From: Actinokineospora baliensis
GTDB lineage: Bacteria > Actinomycetota > Actinomycetes > Mycobacteriales > Pseudonocardiaceae
Assembly: GCF_016907695.1 (NCBI RefSeq)
Contig: NZ_JAFBCK010000001.1
Span: 6,870,001-6,934,000, forward strand
Direction: 5' to 3'
Length of the DNA stretch: 64,000 nt
Positions 25,720 through 55,612 of this stretch are shown here, in pieces. The first letter of the stretch is position 1, and every line of letters begins with the position of its first letter. The notes beneath the pieces are model-generated. The model ran no database searches and had not been told where the DNA came from. It saw nothing but the letters and a program-made list of their open reading frames with translations. The position numbers and the translations under genes are program-made.

Positions 25720-25832
25720 TCCGGAGTTGTCCACAGGCGGGGGAAACCGGGCGGCGGGGCTCGCGGACGGCTCGCTAGCATCCTTGTGTCGAGGTCACAG
25801 CCGTTGTGACCGGCGAGCACCGAGGAGCACCC

Positions 25833-27887
25833 GTGTCCCAGCCACAGTCCCCAGCCGTCGCACCCGCCGCGAGCGTGGTGGTGCAGGCGGGCACTACGGC
25901 TGGCGCGGCCGTGCGCGAGGCCGGGCTCCCCGGCAAGGGCCCGGACGCGGTCGTGGTGGTGCGCGAGGCCGACGGCAGGCTGCGCGACCTGTCGTGGACC
26001 CCTGACGTCGACGTCGAGGTCACCGCGGTCGCGGCGAACTCCGACGAGGGCCGGTCGGTGATCAGGCACTCGTGCGCGCACGTGCTGGCGCAGGCGGTGC
26101 AGCAGCAGTTCCCGGACGCCAAGCTGGGCATCGGCCCGCCGGTGCGCGACGGGTTCTACTACGACTTCGCCGTGGACACCCCGTTCACCCCGGAGGACCT
26201 GCAGGCGCTGGAGAAGCGCATGAAGCAGATCATCAAGGGCGCGCAGCGGTTCTCCCGCCGGGTGTTCGACTCGCTGGAGTCCGCGAAGGCGGAGCTGGCA
26301 GCGGAGCCGTTCAAGCTGGAGCTGGTCGACATCAAGGGTGATGTCGACACCGGCGAGGTGATGGAGGTCGGCGGCGGCGAGCTGACCATCTACGACAACC
26401 TCGACCCGCGCTCCGGCGAGCAGGTGTGGGGCGACCTGTGCCGCGGCCCGCACGTGCCGACCACCAAGCACATCCCGGCGTTCAAGCTGACCAGGGTCGC
26501 GGCGGCGTACTGGCGCGGCAACGACAAGAACCCGCAGCTGCAGCGGATCTACGGCACGGCGTGGGAGTCGCAGGAGGCGCTCGACGCGCACCTGGAGCTC
26601 ATCGCCGAGGCCGAGCGGCGCGACCACCGCAAGCTGGGCACCGAGCTGGACCTGTTCAGCTTCCCCGACGAGATCGGCTCCGGCCTGGCGGTGTTCCACC
26701 CCAAGGGCGGCATCGTGCGGCGCGCGATGGAGGACTACTCGCGGCGCCGCCACGAGGAAGAGGGCTACGAGTTCGTCTACTCGCCGCACATCACCAAGGG
26801 CACCCTGTTCGAGACCTCCGGGCACCTCGACTGGTACCGCGACGGCATGTACCCGGCGATGCACCTCGACGCCGAGTACGACGAGGACGGCAAGGTCCGC
26901 AAGCCGGGCCAGGACTACTACCTCAAGCCGATGAACTGCCCGTTCCACGACCTGATCTTCCGCTCCCGCGGCCGCTCGTACCGGGAGCTGCCGCTGCGCA
27001 TGTTCGAGTTCGGCTCGGTCTACCGCTACGAGAAGTCCGGCGTCATCCACGGCCTCACCCGCGTGCGCGGCATGACCCAGGACGACGCGCACATCTTCTG
27101 CACCCCCGAGCAGGTGCAGGACGAGCTGAAGTCGCTGCTGTCGTTCGTGCTGAACCTGCTGCGCGACTACGGCCTCGACGACTTCTACCTCGAGCTGTCC
27201 ACCCGCAACGACGAGAAGTACGTCGGCTCCGACGAGGTCTGGGAGAAGGCCACCGAGGCACTGCGGGTCGCCGCCACCGACTCCGGCCTCGACCTCGTCC
27301 CCGACCCCGGCGGCGCCGCCTTCTACGGCCCCAAGATCTCCGTCCAGGCCCGCGACGCCCTCGGCCGCACCTGGCAGATGTCCACCATCCAGGTCGACTT
27401 CAACCTCCCCGAGCGCTTCGAACTCGAGTACACCGCGGGCGACGGCACCCGCCAGCGCCCGGTGATGATCCACCGCGCCCTCTTCGGCTCCATCGAACGC
27501 TTCTTCGGCGTCCTCACCGAGCACTACGCGGGCGCCTTCCCCGCCTGGCTCGCCCCGGTCCAGGTGGTCGGCATCCCCATCGCCGAAGACCACGTCGACC
27601 ACCTCCTCCAGGTCTCGAAGTCGTTGCGCGCCAAGGCGATCCGAGTGGACGTCGACGCCTCGGACGACCGGATGCAGAAGAAGATCCGCAACCACACGCT
27701 GCAGAAGGTCCCGTTCATGCTGATGGCGGGCGCGAAGGACGTGGAGTCGGGAGCGGTGTCGTTCCGGTTCCGGGACGGGTCGCAGCTGAACGGGGTTCCG
27801 GTGGACCGGGCGGTGGAGGCCATCGAGGGCTGGATCGCTCGGCGCGAGAACGGGTCGCCTTCCGCGGAGACGTTCGTGGTGGGGTAG
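25833..27887 (+). CDS. thrS: Threonine--tRNA ligase
   Basis: 684 aa class II aminoacyl-tRNA synthetase. Order: N-terminal TGS domain, editing domain ([19 protein letters not shown] in part), catalytic core with the zinc-binding [21 protein letters not shown] and the motif 2 region [20 protein letters not shown], motif 3 [17 protein letters not shown], then anticodon-binding domain. GTG at 25833 with GAGGAG 5 nt upstream is preferred over the in-frame GTG at 25806. Its stop is 5 bp before a structured repeat. Confidence 0.97.
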
Positions 27888-27892
27888 GCGCT

Positions 27893-28143
27893 CGGCTCGC
27901 CTGCGGCATTGCGCTGGATCCGTGGTGGGTTGGGTGTGCTCGATGGGGCGAACCTGTTTTGCGCGGGGCCCCTGCGCTGCCCGTGGCAGGACCGCAAAGC
28001 TGGGGCCGAAAAGCATGGCCCTGCAGCGCACAACGCTACGGACACCGCCACCCCACGCAAAACAGGTCCGCCCCATCGAGCATTTGGGTGGGCGGCTTCC
28101 TGGGAGCGGTGGTGGGGCTGGCGGGGCTGGCTCGGTGGGTTGG
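27893..28143. repeat. Structured repeat, copy A (146-bp palindrome plus flanking modules)
   Basis: This copy fills most of the 369-bp gap between thrS and the convergent gene at 28257. Parts: a 28-bp leader module (27893-27920), a 146-bp palindromic core (27937-28082) whose 27-bp outer arms begin TGCTCGATGGGGCG, and a 61-bp GC-rich tail (28083-28143). The core is, as far as I can read, the exact reverse complement of copy C at 55425-55570, and tail and leader are also shared. Inner segments TGCGCTGC and GCAGCGCA can pair as a second stem. On the minus strand the two arm mismatches become G-U pairs. ORFs through it are not considered coding. Function unknown; RNA hairpin, terminator or mobile remnant are options. 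Confidence 0.9.
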
Positions 28144-28256
28144 GGTGGCACAGCGGCTTCTGGCTTCTTGCTTCTGGCAGGGAAGGTGCCACCGGGACGG
28201 CGGAGGGGGGTGGCCGCGGTCCCGGTGGCGGGTCTGTAGGGGGCGGTTCTACAGGA

Positions 28257-28640
28257 CTAGTCGACGGGTAGGACGTGGTGGAGTTGTTGGCTGCCTTCGA
28301 TGGGGACGCAGCCTTCGCCTTCGAAGACGAGCCTGCTCGGGTCGGTGATGAGGTCGGTTTCGAGGGCGAGTTTGAAGCCCGCGATGCTCGCGGCGGCCCG
28401 CATGGTCGGGTTGTCGGCGTTGACCGTGTACTGGAAGAGGCGGATGCCGACCGCGTAGGCGGTGATGAGGGCGGTGACGCCGTCGCCGGTGGAGATTTGG
28501 GCGTCTATTTTGAACGCGCCCATGAAGGTGAAGCTGTGGTCCTGGGTGTTGCGGGCGGAGGGGTGGATCAGGGTCTCGGGCAGTGCCCTGGCCGACAGCG
28601 TCAACGCGGCGTTCGCACCTGAGAGGTTGGTGGCCGACAT
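28257..28640 (-). CDS. Conserved-looking 127-aa protein of unknown function
   Basis: No family recognised. Good ribosome-binding site (AGGAGG) before the ATG at 28640. The sequence has no signal peptide or membrane helix. It looks like a small beta-rich domain (DHSFTFMGAFKIDAQIS, FQYTVNADNPTMRA, GFKLALETDLITDPSRLVFE). It ends 114 bp before repeat copy A, so a read-through transcript would contain the stable form of that hairpin. The 283 bp upstream (28641-28923) separates it from the divergent two-component system; I see no clear site there. Confidence 0.7.
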   Translation of the reverse strand: MSATNLSGANAALTLSARALPETLIHPSARNTQDHSFTFMGAFKIDAQISTGDGVTALITAYAVGIRLFQYTVNADNPTMRAAASIAGFKLALETDLITDPSRLVFEGEGCVPIEGSQQLHHVLPVD

Positions 28641-28923
28641 GGTTCCTCCTGCGCTGAATGGGGTCCCCCGACCGACGGATACCGTCACACCGAGTCTCAG
28701 CACTGAGCGTGGTCCACTCAATGGCACTCGCCCGACCGGGGAACCACTGCCCACCTGTGGGTGACCGCGGACGCCCACCACCTCCCACCTCCGCGCACGG
28801 GAGAGTCCACACTGCACCCGACCGGGGTCGGTCAACCCCCCGCAAGGCCGGTCTTCGCCACCCCCGGGTGGGTGTACAACAGCGGAGCGCTGCCGTCCAC
28901 CGAAGGTGTGCGACCGTAGTGGG

Positions 28924-29613
28924 GTGCACCTGGTGATCGTCGACGACGAGGCGGCTGTGCGGGATTCGCTGTCGCGGACCCTGCGGTTCGAGGGGTACAC
29001 CGTCTCGACCGCCGCCGACGGGGCCGCGGCGCTGGGGGTGATCCGCGCCGAGCGGCCGGACGGGGTGATCCTGGACGTGATGATGCCGGTGCTCGGGGGG
29101 CTCGACGCGTGCCGGGTGCTGCGGGCCGAGGGCAACTACGTGCCGATCCTCATGCTCACCGCGCGCACCGGGGTCGACGACCGGGTGGCCGGGCTGGAGG
29201 CGGGCGCCGACGACTACCTGGTCAAGCCGTTCGCGCTGCAGGAACTGCTGGCCAGGGTGCGCGCCCTGCTGCGCCGCGCCGAGTACCACGCCGACACCGC
29301 CACGGACACCTCCTTGCGCTTCGCCGACGTCGTGCTCGACCCGGTCACCAGGGAGGTCGGCCGGGGCGGGCGGTCGCTGCGGCTGACCAGGACCGAGTTC
29401 GCGATCTTGGAGGTCTTCCTGCGCCACCCCCGCGTGGTGCTGACCCGCACCGCCATGTTCGACCACGTGTGGGGCTACGACTTCGGCGCGGCGTCCAACG
29501 GCCTGGACGTCTACGTCGGGTACTTGCGGCGCAAGCTGGAGGCCGAGGGTGAGCCGCGACTGCTGCACACCGTGCGCGGGGTCGGCTACGTGCTGCGGGA
29601 GGACCCGCTGTGA
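28924..29613 (+). CDS. OmpR-family response regulator (MprA-like)
   Basis: 229 aa. The receiver domain begins [13 protein letters not shown], the phospho-acceptor Asp is in [11 protein letters not shown] (about residue 50) and the switch Lys in YLVKPF. A C-terminal winged helix follows ([34 protein letters not shown]). GTG at 28924 fits the receiver start best, although no strong ribosome-binding site is seen. Overlaps the kinase gene by 4 bp. Confidence 0.93.
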
Positions 29614-53817: not shown

Positions 53818-53882
53818 CCAACCCACCGAGTCAGCCCCGCCAGCCCGACCACCGCTCCCAGGAAGCCGCCCACCTAAATGCT
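53818..53882. repeat. Tail module and first bases of repeat copy B, cut off by the IS
   Basis: The 61 bp at 53818-53878 match the tail module of copies A and C with a few changes. They are followed by TGCT, the first bases of the palindromic core. The rest of that core resumes at 55187 after the IS. The IS target duplication GCT lies at 53880-53882 and 55187-55189. The stretch 53690-53817 between the precursor gene and this module shows no feature I can support. Confidence 0.85.
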
Positions 53883-53951
53883 TGAGGGGCCTCGAGGTTT
53901 CCGGACAGGAACCCAGTAAGATTGTCCTGTCGGGAAGTTGAGGGAGTGCAC

Positions 53952-54254
53952 GTGGCCCATCGGAGTCCGTACTCGCCGGAGTTTCGTGAGGAAGCAGTTC
54001 AGATGGCGTTGCGGTCGAAACGGCCGATCGCCGAGACGGCGCGAGAGTTGAATATGAACTCGGAGACACTGCGTGTATGGGTGCGGAGCTATGAGCGGGA
54101 ACAAGGTGCGGACTCGGCCGTCGCCGTGTCGGAGCCGTTGGCAACGGACGAACGAGCGCGACTACGAGAGTTGGAACGCCGTAACCGCGAACTCGAGATG
54201 GAAGTGTCTTTCCTGAAAAAAGCCGCAGCGTACTTCGCGAAGGATGCCGAGTAG
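53952..54254 (+). CDS. IS3-family transposase OrfA
   Basis: 100 aa from the GTG at 53952: helix-turn-helix (YSPEFREEAVQMALRS, IAETARELNMNSETLRVWV) and a C-terminal leucine-zipper-like coil (RELERRNRELEMEVSFLKKA). A run of six A followed by G (54216-54222) near its 3' end is a probable -1 frameshift site; orfB is in the -1 frame and open from there, giving an OrfAB fusion. The in-frame run reads AAA AAA G, slightly different in phase from the classical A AAA AAG. Confidence 0.92.
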   Translation: MAHRSPYSPEFREEAVQMALRSKRPIAETARELNMNSETLRVWVRSYEREQGADSAVAVSEPLATDERARLRELERRNRELEMEVSFLKKAAAYFAKDAE

Positions 54255-54280
54255 TCAGCAAGTACGAGTTCATCGAAACG

Positions 54281-55144
54281 ATGCGACTTGAACCTGCGAA
54301 GTACGCGTATCCCGTCCTGTTCATGTGCCGACTGCTCGACGTTTCCAGGTCCGGCTACTACGAATGGCGCGGCCGGGCGGAATCGGCCACCGCGCGACGG
54401 CGAGAGGAGCTGAAAGCGTTTATCCGGGACGCGTTCGAGGCCTCGGACTCGACTTACGGCCACCGGCGGGTCCATGCCCAGTTGCGGCGGGCAGGCGTGT
54501 GCGTGGGTGTTGAACTGGTCCGGCACCTCATGCGTGAACTGGGGCTGGTTCCCTGCCAGCCAAGGCCCCGGCGGTTCGGGCTGACCACCGCGGCGGCCGC
54601 GCCGGTGGGCGACCTGGTCGGCCGTGACTTCACCGCGCCCGCGCCGGGACGCAAGCTGGTCGGCGACATCACCTACGTTCCCACGATGGAAGGCTGGCTT
54701 TACCTGGCCACCGTGCTGGATTGCTGCACGAAAGAAGTGATCGGCTACGCGATGGACGACAACTACCAGACACCGCTCATCAGCCGCGCTATCCGCAACG
54801 CGGCCCGAAACCGCCCACTCGCCGACGGTGCGATATTTCACAGCGACCGCGGCAGCAATTACATGTCCACCGAGTACCACAACGTCCTCACCAGCCTCCG
54901 GTTGAAGCAATCAGCAGGGCGAACCGGAATCTGTTTCGACAACGCGATGGCCGAATCGTTCTTCGGCACACTCAAAAACGAATGCGTCAACCGGATGGCT
55001 TACTCCACCCGAGACGAAGCCCGGCAGCACATCACTCGCTACATCGAGTTCTGGTATAATCGCCGACGACTTCACTCAGCGATAGGCTACCGCCCACCGC
55101 ACGAGGTATACATCGAACACAAGAACCAACAAATCGCCGCTTGA
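54281..55144 (+). CDS. IS3-family transposase OrfB (DDE integrase core)
   Basis: 287 aa rve-type catalytic subunit. The DDE residues are in LVGDITYVPT, FHSDRGSNY and FDNAMAESFFGTLKNE. An upstream helical HTH_21 region (DSTYGHRRVHAQLRR) is present, and the C-terminus YIEFWYNRRRLHSAIGY is complete. Likely made mainly as OrfAB by frameshifting, since the frame is open upstream of its ATG into orfA. Confidence 0.94.
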   Translation: MRLEPAKYAYPVLFMCRLLDVSRSGYYEWRGRAESATARRREELKAFIRDAFEASDSTYGHRRVHAQLRRAGVCVGVELVRHLMRELGLVPCQPRPRRFGLTTAAAAPVGDLVGRDFTAPAPGRKLVGDITYVPTMEGWLYLATVLDCCTKEVIGYAMDDNYQTPLISRAIRNAARNRPLADGAIFHSDRGSNYMSTEYHNVLTSLRLKQSAGRTGICFDNAMAESFFGTLKNECVNRMAYSTRDEARQHITRYIEFWYNRRRLHSAIGYRPPHEVYIEHKNQQIAA

Positions 55145-55186
55145 ATAGACAGTTGATCCCCTGTCCGGAAACCGCGCGGCTCCTCA

Positions 55187-55331
55187 GCTCGATGGGGCGG
55201 ACTTGGTTTGTGTGGGGGAGCGGTGCCCGTAGCGTTGTGCGCGGACAGGGCCATGCTTTTCGGCCCCAGCTTTGCGGTCCTGCCACGGGTGGCGCAGGGG
55301 CCCCGCGCAAACCAAGTTCGCCCCATCGAGC
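55187..55331. repeat. Structured repeat, copy B core (145 bp)
   Basis: Palindromic core in the same orientation as copy C, 93 bp before it. The outer arms read GCTCGATGGGGCGGACTTGG and, from the other end, GCTCGATGGGGCGAACTTGG. Relative to copies A and C two positions in the stem differ (CTTGG for CCTGT), and both arms carry the change, so pairing is kept. All arm-to-arm differences fall on G-U pairs when read as plus-strand RNA. Its tail module is at 53818-53878, left of the IS. Confidence 0.9.
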
Positions 55332-55367
55332 CCACCCAGCCACCACGAACCGACCCCGCCAACCCAG

Positions 55368-55612
55368 CCCACCGAGCCAGCCCCGCCAGCCCCACCACCG
55401 CTCCCAGGAAGCCGCCCACCCAAATGCTCGATGGGGCGGACCTGTTTTGCGTGGGGTGGCGGTGTCCGTAGCGTTGTGCGCTGCAGGGCCATGCTTTTCG
55501 GCCCCAGCTTTGCGGTCCTGCCACGGGCAGCGCAGGGGCCCCGCGCAAAACAGGTTCGCCCCATCGAGCACCCCGTACCACCGCGATCCAGCGCAATGCC
55601 GAAGGCGAGCCG
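55368..55612. repeat. Structured repeat, copy C (tail, 146-bp core, leader)
   Basis: Tail module 55368-55424, palindromic core 55425-55570, leader module 55585-55612. Core identical by eye to the reverse complement of copy A, 27 kb away. The leader ends 13 bp from the stop of the minus-strand HAD gene, mirroring copy A, whose leader starts 6 bp after the thrS stop. The whole 480-bp stretch 55145-55624 holds the IS end and these repeats and no gene. Confidence 0.9.

Follow-up and report, generated by a model that had tools for sequence, protein, structure and literature searches.

Between two convergent genes of Actinokineospora baliensis lies a repeat of about 250 nt, and the question that this locus raises is whether such a unit is mobile, terminates transcription or acts as a structured RNA, three possibilities that an earlier note on this DNA had placed side by side. 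We studied it in a window of 64,000 nt (the whole stretch analysed, positions 6,870,001 to 6,934,000 of contig NZ_JAFBCK010000001.1), in the complete genome and in related genomes. Our results support the mobile unit and the structured RNA jointly, but not the terminator as the main explanation. The repeat is, in our judgement, rather likely to be a dispersed non-autonomous mobile element of ~250 nt, consisting of a U module, a 146-nt hairpin core and a D module, with its fold under selection.

A hairpin core with two flanking modules

The three copies in the window lie where the earlier note had located them, with six matches to the arm pattern against 0.00 expected from 100 shuffles (Table 1). 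Cores A and C are identical in sequence, as they had appeared to be in the earlier note; since core A on the minus strand reads as core C on the plus strand, the two are also mutually inverted, core A being the reverse complement of core C, while core B is a third, differing copy. The match between copies A and C extends over 251 bp at 97%. The palindrome, described as 146 bp long, proved near-perfect only in its outer ~32-bp arms (in core A, 32 nt, 94% complementary, 82 nt between them); the inner ~82 nt are asymmetric and have stems of their own. Against R1, a covariance model built from 75 cores, core A scores 160.1 bits on the minus strand and 68.3 bits on the plus strand.

Table 1 Repeat copies and neighbouring features in the window.
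Feature	Position	Strand	Remarks
Threonyl-tRNA synthetase-type gene	25806..27887	+	tRNA-synt_2b, HGTP_anticodon, tRNA_SAD; converges on copy A
D module of copy A	27893..27936	-	3' of core
Core A, 146-nt hairpin	27937..28082	-	P1 arms 27937-27968 and 28051-28082
U module of copy A	28083..28143	-	5' of core on hairpin strand
Longest ORF, convergent side of copy A	28249..29568	-	No Pfam family at E<=0.001
U-type module left of IS	53825..53882	+	Read as U module of core B (by inspection)
IS with IS3-type transposase (rve, HTH_21)	53883..55186	+	Ends by inspection
Core B	55187..55331	+	
Module stretch between cores B and C	55332..55424	+	Right part (from 55364) is U module of C
Core C	55425..55570	+	Same as core A, opposite orientation
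D module of core C	55571..55612	+	

The shared flanking modules are likewise real, and their order on the hairpin strand (U, core, D) is fixed in 65 of 75 copies sampled from the A. baliensis genome (hereafter own copies), five being flipped and five without a recognised module. In three relatives the order is normal in 89 of 111 copies, with 17 lacking a module, two ambiguous and three skipped at locus ends. Copy A does sit between convergent genes: its D module begins 5 nt past the stop of the synthetase gene (thrS), and on the other side lies the longest opposing ORF, within which the home-made codon-usage caller that defined our genes picks a shorter piece (28257-28640).

About 210 copies in one genome and relatives in other genera

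The earlier note had considered that only three copies might exist, as a local duplication; the genome carries about 210. The arm pattern, which tolerates up to three mismatches, matched 209 times forward and 214 times in reverse, against 1 and 1 for a reversed-pattern control, and the estimate follows because every hairpin matches once per strand. A DNA search of the genome gave at least 215 matching pieces (among the best 40 of 199 candidate regions), and R1 at least 150 matches, RNA-model E-values being rough. Our own sample holds 75 cores in 1.664 Mb of the 7.68 Mb, part of it chosen around known copies; in this sequence the core-and-module composite dominates the longest assemblies of frequent 14-mers. 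There is no clear replication-strand bias, with 19 plus and 14 minus cores in the left half and 19 plus and 23 minus in the right, for an assumed boundary at 3.84 Mb.

Thirteen of 16 genomes of the genus match the arm pattern, five of them by one or two matches. In the family searches, which listed up to 10 matches per genome, R1 has matches in 29 of 297 genomes, including 13 of the 16. R2, a second model built from 32 diverse cores of this and other genera (alignment A3), finds the hairpin in 65 of these 297 genomes, which represent 12 of 46 genera and include 15 of the 16 from the genus, some of these matches being weak; G005 is the sole genus genome with no R2 match. A class-wide R2 search under strict filters (E<=1e-4) found 2 of 394 genomes, both in the genus. 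The earlier note knew no named family, which holds for Rfam 15: window positions 27700-28400 gave no match at E<=1, and at 19 loci of relatives none of the matches lying on hairpins attained its curated cut-off. Matches to mir-4776 at one of these loci (L159) were below cut-off and on both strands, an artefact of long hairpins. A SAM riboswitch (RF00162, 81 bits) lies near a hairpin locus of genome G043 (L174, 8-138). In a literature search of open-licence PMC papers, the repeat was named in no title or abstract opening; the 'palindromic repeats' in the part of PMC6273641 concerned are CRISPRs, not this repeat, and the relevant part of PMC10123090 treats DUF2220, which is irrelevant to the DUF222 proteins discussed below.

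The fold is maintained by compensatory change

The predicted fold stands far below shuffled sequences in energy, with z = -8.2 on one strand and -9.7 on the other and none of 200 shuffles equally stable, and for copy A it reaches -106.8 kcal/mol on the minus strand versus -93.4 kcal/mol on the plus strand. In the consensus, P1 is the outer stem (~30 bp), with the purine bulge AGGGG preceding the 3' CCCC; the stem P2 and further hairpins lie inside it. In an alignment of 75 cores from four species (A1), 98.4% of cells are paired, with 150 two-sided changes versus 38.2 after shuffling, and P2 shows such changes at 7 of its 8 pairs. The more diverse alignment A3 is 92.2% paired, with 202 two-sided changes versus 67.8, distributed over 23 of 25 pairs. 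This signal vanishes when the partner strand is slid. The fold is kept by compensatory change, and the covariation is strong.

Further structural detail was seen by inspection. Cores of other genera carry a UAAGCU-like stretch past P2, followed by a short hairpin, which suggests a three-way junction. The small hairpin of the D module (GCC-GCA-GGC in copy A) varies in its letters and retains its pairing. Several species seemed on inspection to allow a pairing between U and D, but the fold computed on an alignment of 178 units contains none.

Where the end of P1 reads GGAG/CUCC, it goes with a bulge AGAGG, not AGGGG, a mirror-like joint change present in genera g20 and g28 at loci L167, L170, L172, L173, L218, L225-L227 and L338-L357. 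This three-way change, in which AGGGG goes with GGGG/CCCC but AGAGG goes with GGAG/CUCC, is a hint of a base-triple contact. On a wider motif list, bulge and P1 agreed in every one of 40 hairpins, which came from three genomes of a single genus; the first list, of 55 further elements, was by design unable to reveal such cases. One single copy in A. terrae (L076) is discordant, with AGGGG, CUCC and a 5' GGGG.

Mismatches in P1 were counted on strands oriented by the bulge motif only. Among 70 distinct own cores they comprise 127 G.U, 4 A.C and 29 others, and among 101 distinct cores of three relatives (A. diospyrosa, G004; A. globicatena, G007; A. terrae, G014) 215, 10 and 39, respectively; most of this excess lies at three to four shared stem positions, and outside them the G.U:A.C ratio falls to 9:4 in own cores and 20:4 in the relatives. 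The 55 further elements gave 51:3, made up of 15:0 for eight own and two named-relative elements together, 35:0 for 26 elements of other genus genomes, and 1:3 for 19 elements outside the genus, where the preference is not seen. Because the counts split 35:0 versus 1:3, the preference is clear in Actinokineospora and absent beyond it, where mismatches are few. Since P1 mismatches in the genus are G.U and not A.C on one strand, the sequences point to a folded single strand as the form that is probably under selection there. G.T pairs in single-stranded DNA could yield a weaker bias of the same kind, so RNA is favoured, not proved; the recognised form may be RNA, single-stranded DNA or double-stranded DNA.

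Copies are mostly found at convergent intergenic sites

None of the 75 own cores lies inside a called gene. The 53 own sites divide into 31 convergent, 19 tandem and 3 divergent ones; the background, 1485 neighbouring gene pairs, has 257 convergent and 251 divergent (convergent enrichment, 31/53 versus 257/1485, p = 2e-11). In the relatives and the window, convergent sites hold 60 of the 97 placed cores and divergent sites hold 5, with 138 of 745 background pairs convergent; 17 further cores at locus edges fall outside the 97.

This placement, together with the very stable fold and the one-strand G.U preference within the genus, is compatible with a host structure at gene 3' ends, acting in place as a terminator, RNA-stability element or RNase III element for convergent genes. 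However, insertion tolerance would produce an equal convergent bias, and the bulge and inner stem shared across genera exceed what a terminator needs. Orientation to the preceding gene is inconsistent (own tandem sites, 11 co-directional and 19 opposite; relatives, 21 co-directional, 10 opposite and 1 unoriented), and a terminator therefore finds no support as the main explanation. Moreover, 17 clusters in relatives are testable through an orthologous place in the A. baliensis genome: an own core stands at six of these places, and none is seen at the other 11. Some of the latter may still harbour a core, since the arm pattern can miss diverged copies, and the own gaps of 668, 907, 939 and 2398 bp are the doubtful cases. 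Taken together, a host 3'-end structure acting in place is unlikely.

Cores turn over largely apart from their modules

At occupied orthologous sites, cores are 74-91% alike, while the genome of each holds another copy that matches it at 96-100%. The region past thrS shows the same locus in 16 genomes: within the first 520 bp, G000, G011, G006 and G012 have a core, each with an R1 match and each in a species-specific version, and in G001 a core lies ~500 bp farther on (L196). The latter locus also carries, downstream of thrS, direct repeats of ~110 bp in addition to the family hairpin. In G005, thrS is followed by another long palindrome, of a different type and with the motif CTAAAG (L188; R1 25.8 bits, weak).

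Among 138 own pairs that are at least 94% alike across the core, the match stops no more than 10 bp upstream of the core in 69 and no more than 10 bp downstream of it in 77; in the remaining pairs it runs past the core, mostly by 10-60 bp. Where cores are at least 97% alike (140 pairs), the mean identity of the 45-nt flanks is 69% on one side and 72% on the other, compared with 67% and 67% for random copy pairs and 56% for random 45-mers. As flank similarity is near the random-pair level, cores appear to be replaced or copied largely apart from their modules, and their sameness within a genome could reflect gene conversion without transposition.

Own sites with two copies have the orientations '-+' (four), '+-' (one), '++' (four) and '--' (two). 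The five flipped own cores (genome positions 2261891, 5876094, 6627148, 6171884 and 6172151) fit recombination between arms; they resemble each other in their unusual other flank, as if one flip had founded a sub-lineage. In A. diospyrosa, tandem ~56-bp units lie beside cores at L070, most ending like the core's 3' arm, and repeated 'ctggacactcgga..ggtgcca' or 'gcccccgatacacagcctaccg' modules lie beside cores at L094 and L120.

An IS3-type element inserts into the repeat

The insertion sequence (IS) in the foot of core B is enclosed by GCT direct repeats (53880-53882 and 55187-55189). Among the sequences analysed, six distinct right ends of the IS were seen, of which five, by inspection, adjoin the repeat. 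Its transposase genes in the own sample number five, and every one is no more than 1.5 kb away from a core, versus 180 of 1473 genes, and in a partner search of that sample the IS3-type transposase was the sole family of at least three members found wholly near copies. This suggests a target preference of the IS for the repeat; insertion into palindromic repeats is known for REPs from the part of PMC1525189 that deals with them.

Could a transposase of this kind instead be what moves the repeat? The repeat would then be an ordinary MITE of a DDE transposon, recognised through double-stranded ends, and its fold a by-product of long inverted repeats. The nearby transposase genes, the many near-identical pairs that end within 10 bp of the core, the inverted ends of the cassettes described below and the lack of a one-strand bias beyond the genus all agree with this. 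Against it stand the G.U bias within the genus, the covariation of the inner stem P2 and the conserved polarity; also, six own empty sites examined by eye show no consistent target-site duplication, in intergenic sequence that is much diverged. The IS itself lies inside or beside the repeat and has its own ends, so that it looks like an invader. We therefore hold an ordinary DDE-type MITE to be quite improbable.

In other genera, paired hairpins bracket DUF222 genes

A larger relative of the repeat was found in genus g20, where many R2 matches form inverted pairs ~1.4-1.9 kb apart. In 20 regions selected because paired (12 from G071, 5 from G121, 3 from G152), the hairpins bracket a DUF222 match in 20 of 20 cases, although at L352 the match spans only 202 aa in its best piece. 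The G071 elements are 1590-1638 bp long and 88-94% alike with both hairpins conserved; the left hairpin differs from the right, each is nearly constant over 12 copies, and similarity drops beyond ~20 bp to the left and, on the right side, beyond ~90 bp. At L172, a 380-aa ORF between two hairpins matches Pfam DUF222, and the coding-strand hairpin lies 68 nt past its stop. L171 (g31) matches Pfam DUF222 and HNH, with a weak match to an IscB entry (E 0.051) over the HNH part. DUF222 lies within ~1.5 kb of hairpins at g31, g35 and g8 loci, those of g35 and g8 having one hairpin only in view; at the g17, g28, g29 and g23 hairpin loci, there is no DUF222 tblastn match within about 1.5 kb.

Our best reading is that the repeat is related to the ends of these DUF222 cassettes and that the window copies are its gene-less form. 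The A. baliensis genome has 0 DUF222 matches, tblastn with two DUF222 proteins gave 0 matches in the 1.664 Mb of own sequence, and the family is absent from 14 of 16 genus genomes, occurring in G011 and G012 only (three genes, with no R2 match at these three loci). DUF222 is thus not the present mobiliser in A. baliensis. In the mechanism that we propose, the hairpin would be the recognition structure of a mobile unit, which in some genera may travel with a DUF222 gene as cargo or mobiliser. In Actinokineospora it would have multiplied without that gene, presumably moved or homogenised in trans by some enzyme, with recombination between cores contributing. Our data show neither a transposition event nor an excision product or a transcript, which counts against this reading, as does the lack of a consistent target-site duplication at the six own empty sites.

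A bolder version would make the hairpin both the RNA partner and the end-marker of a new mobile class with a DUF222-HNH nuclease. The nuclease transcript would run into the end hairpin and the resulting nucleoprotein would act on matching sites; gene-less hairpins would spread in trans, and Actinokineospora would host large RNA-only populations served by a nuclease yet to be recognised. We put this forward as speculation, and rather unlikely as a whole.

Comparison with known systems

Parts of three papers describe REP/REPIN repeats as high-copy intergenic palindromes with inverted doublets and IS targeting (PMC2817692, PMC3116915, PMC1525189). Our repeat resembles REPs, BIMEs and REPINs in having more than 100 intergenic copies, some of them in inverted doublets, in its proposed non-autonomous spread and in being targeted by IS elements. 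These likenesses would fit a REP/REPIN-type repeat moved by a RAYT (REP-associated tyrosine transposase). Unlike REPs, however, the repeat is long (~146 nt plus modules, versus roughly 20-37 nt in the relevant part of PMC2817692) and has a multi-stem fold with a purine bulge. The hairpin foot lacks the GT(A/G)G head that the same source gives for REP palindromes, its own flanks reading mostly ..ACT or ..AAT before GCTCG and those of other species differing again. Only two of the 16 genus genomes have a Y1_Tnp match, and A. baliensis is among the 14 that lack one (0 matches); the absence contradicts a RAYT there, unless a diverged Y1 enzyme escapes the model, and movement by a RAYT is very improbable.

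An RNA-like selected fold in a multiplying element might also recall retroposition, in which RNA is copied back by reverse transcription in the manner of a SINE. In contrast to group II introns and retrons, the A. baliensis genome has no reverse transcriptase of the RVT_1 family (0 matches); 13 of 16 genus genomes lack it and three have it, and we give retroposition hardly any credence.

MITEs are short, gene-less elements with inverted ends, related to a larger element that has the same ends. The repeat shares all of these features. It differs from a MITE of a DDE transposon in that the larger relative carries DUF222 (20/20) and no recognised transposase, and in that the U-core-D polarity is kept; the IS that encodes an IS3-type transposase close to own copies is bounded by ends of its own.

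IS200/IS605 elements and OMEGA-type nuclease-RNA elements have hairpins at their ends and a gene between them, with the TnpB guide RNA in a characteristic layout. The g20 cassettes have the same arrangement, and at L172 the hairpin past the stop recalls the guide-RNA layout of TnpB. The protein family differs, though, and the hairpins are inverted, the likeness being one of layout.

DUF222-HNH genes are numerous in actinobacteria, with, to our knowledge, no role assigned to them. Among them are the REP13E12 / DUF222-HNH repeats of mycobacteria. The g20 cassettes of G071, G121 and G152 resemble these repeats in their DUF222 gene, whereas the A. baliensis unit lacks one; in the class-wide sample, searched under strict filters, R2 matched no genome beyond the genus at E<=1e-4. 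The DIVE paper, which cites Gordon et al. (1999), lists DUF222 and HNH genes as repetitive, and the part of it that gives this account mentions no hairpin ends (PMC10589994).

The results indicate an unlisted family of structured elements whose covariation is strong and which has matches in 12 of the 46 sampled genera, in some weakly. The DUF222 genes bracketed by hairpin pairs in g20, together with the gene-less hairpins of A. baliensis, provide a concrete, testable model of a mobile element. A hairpin that occurs with and without DUF222 follows a logic resembling that of REPs and RAYTs, or of introns with and without endonuclease genes.
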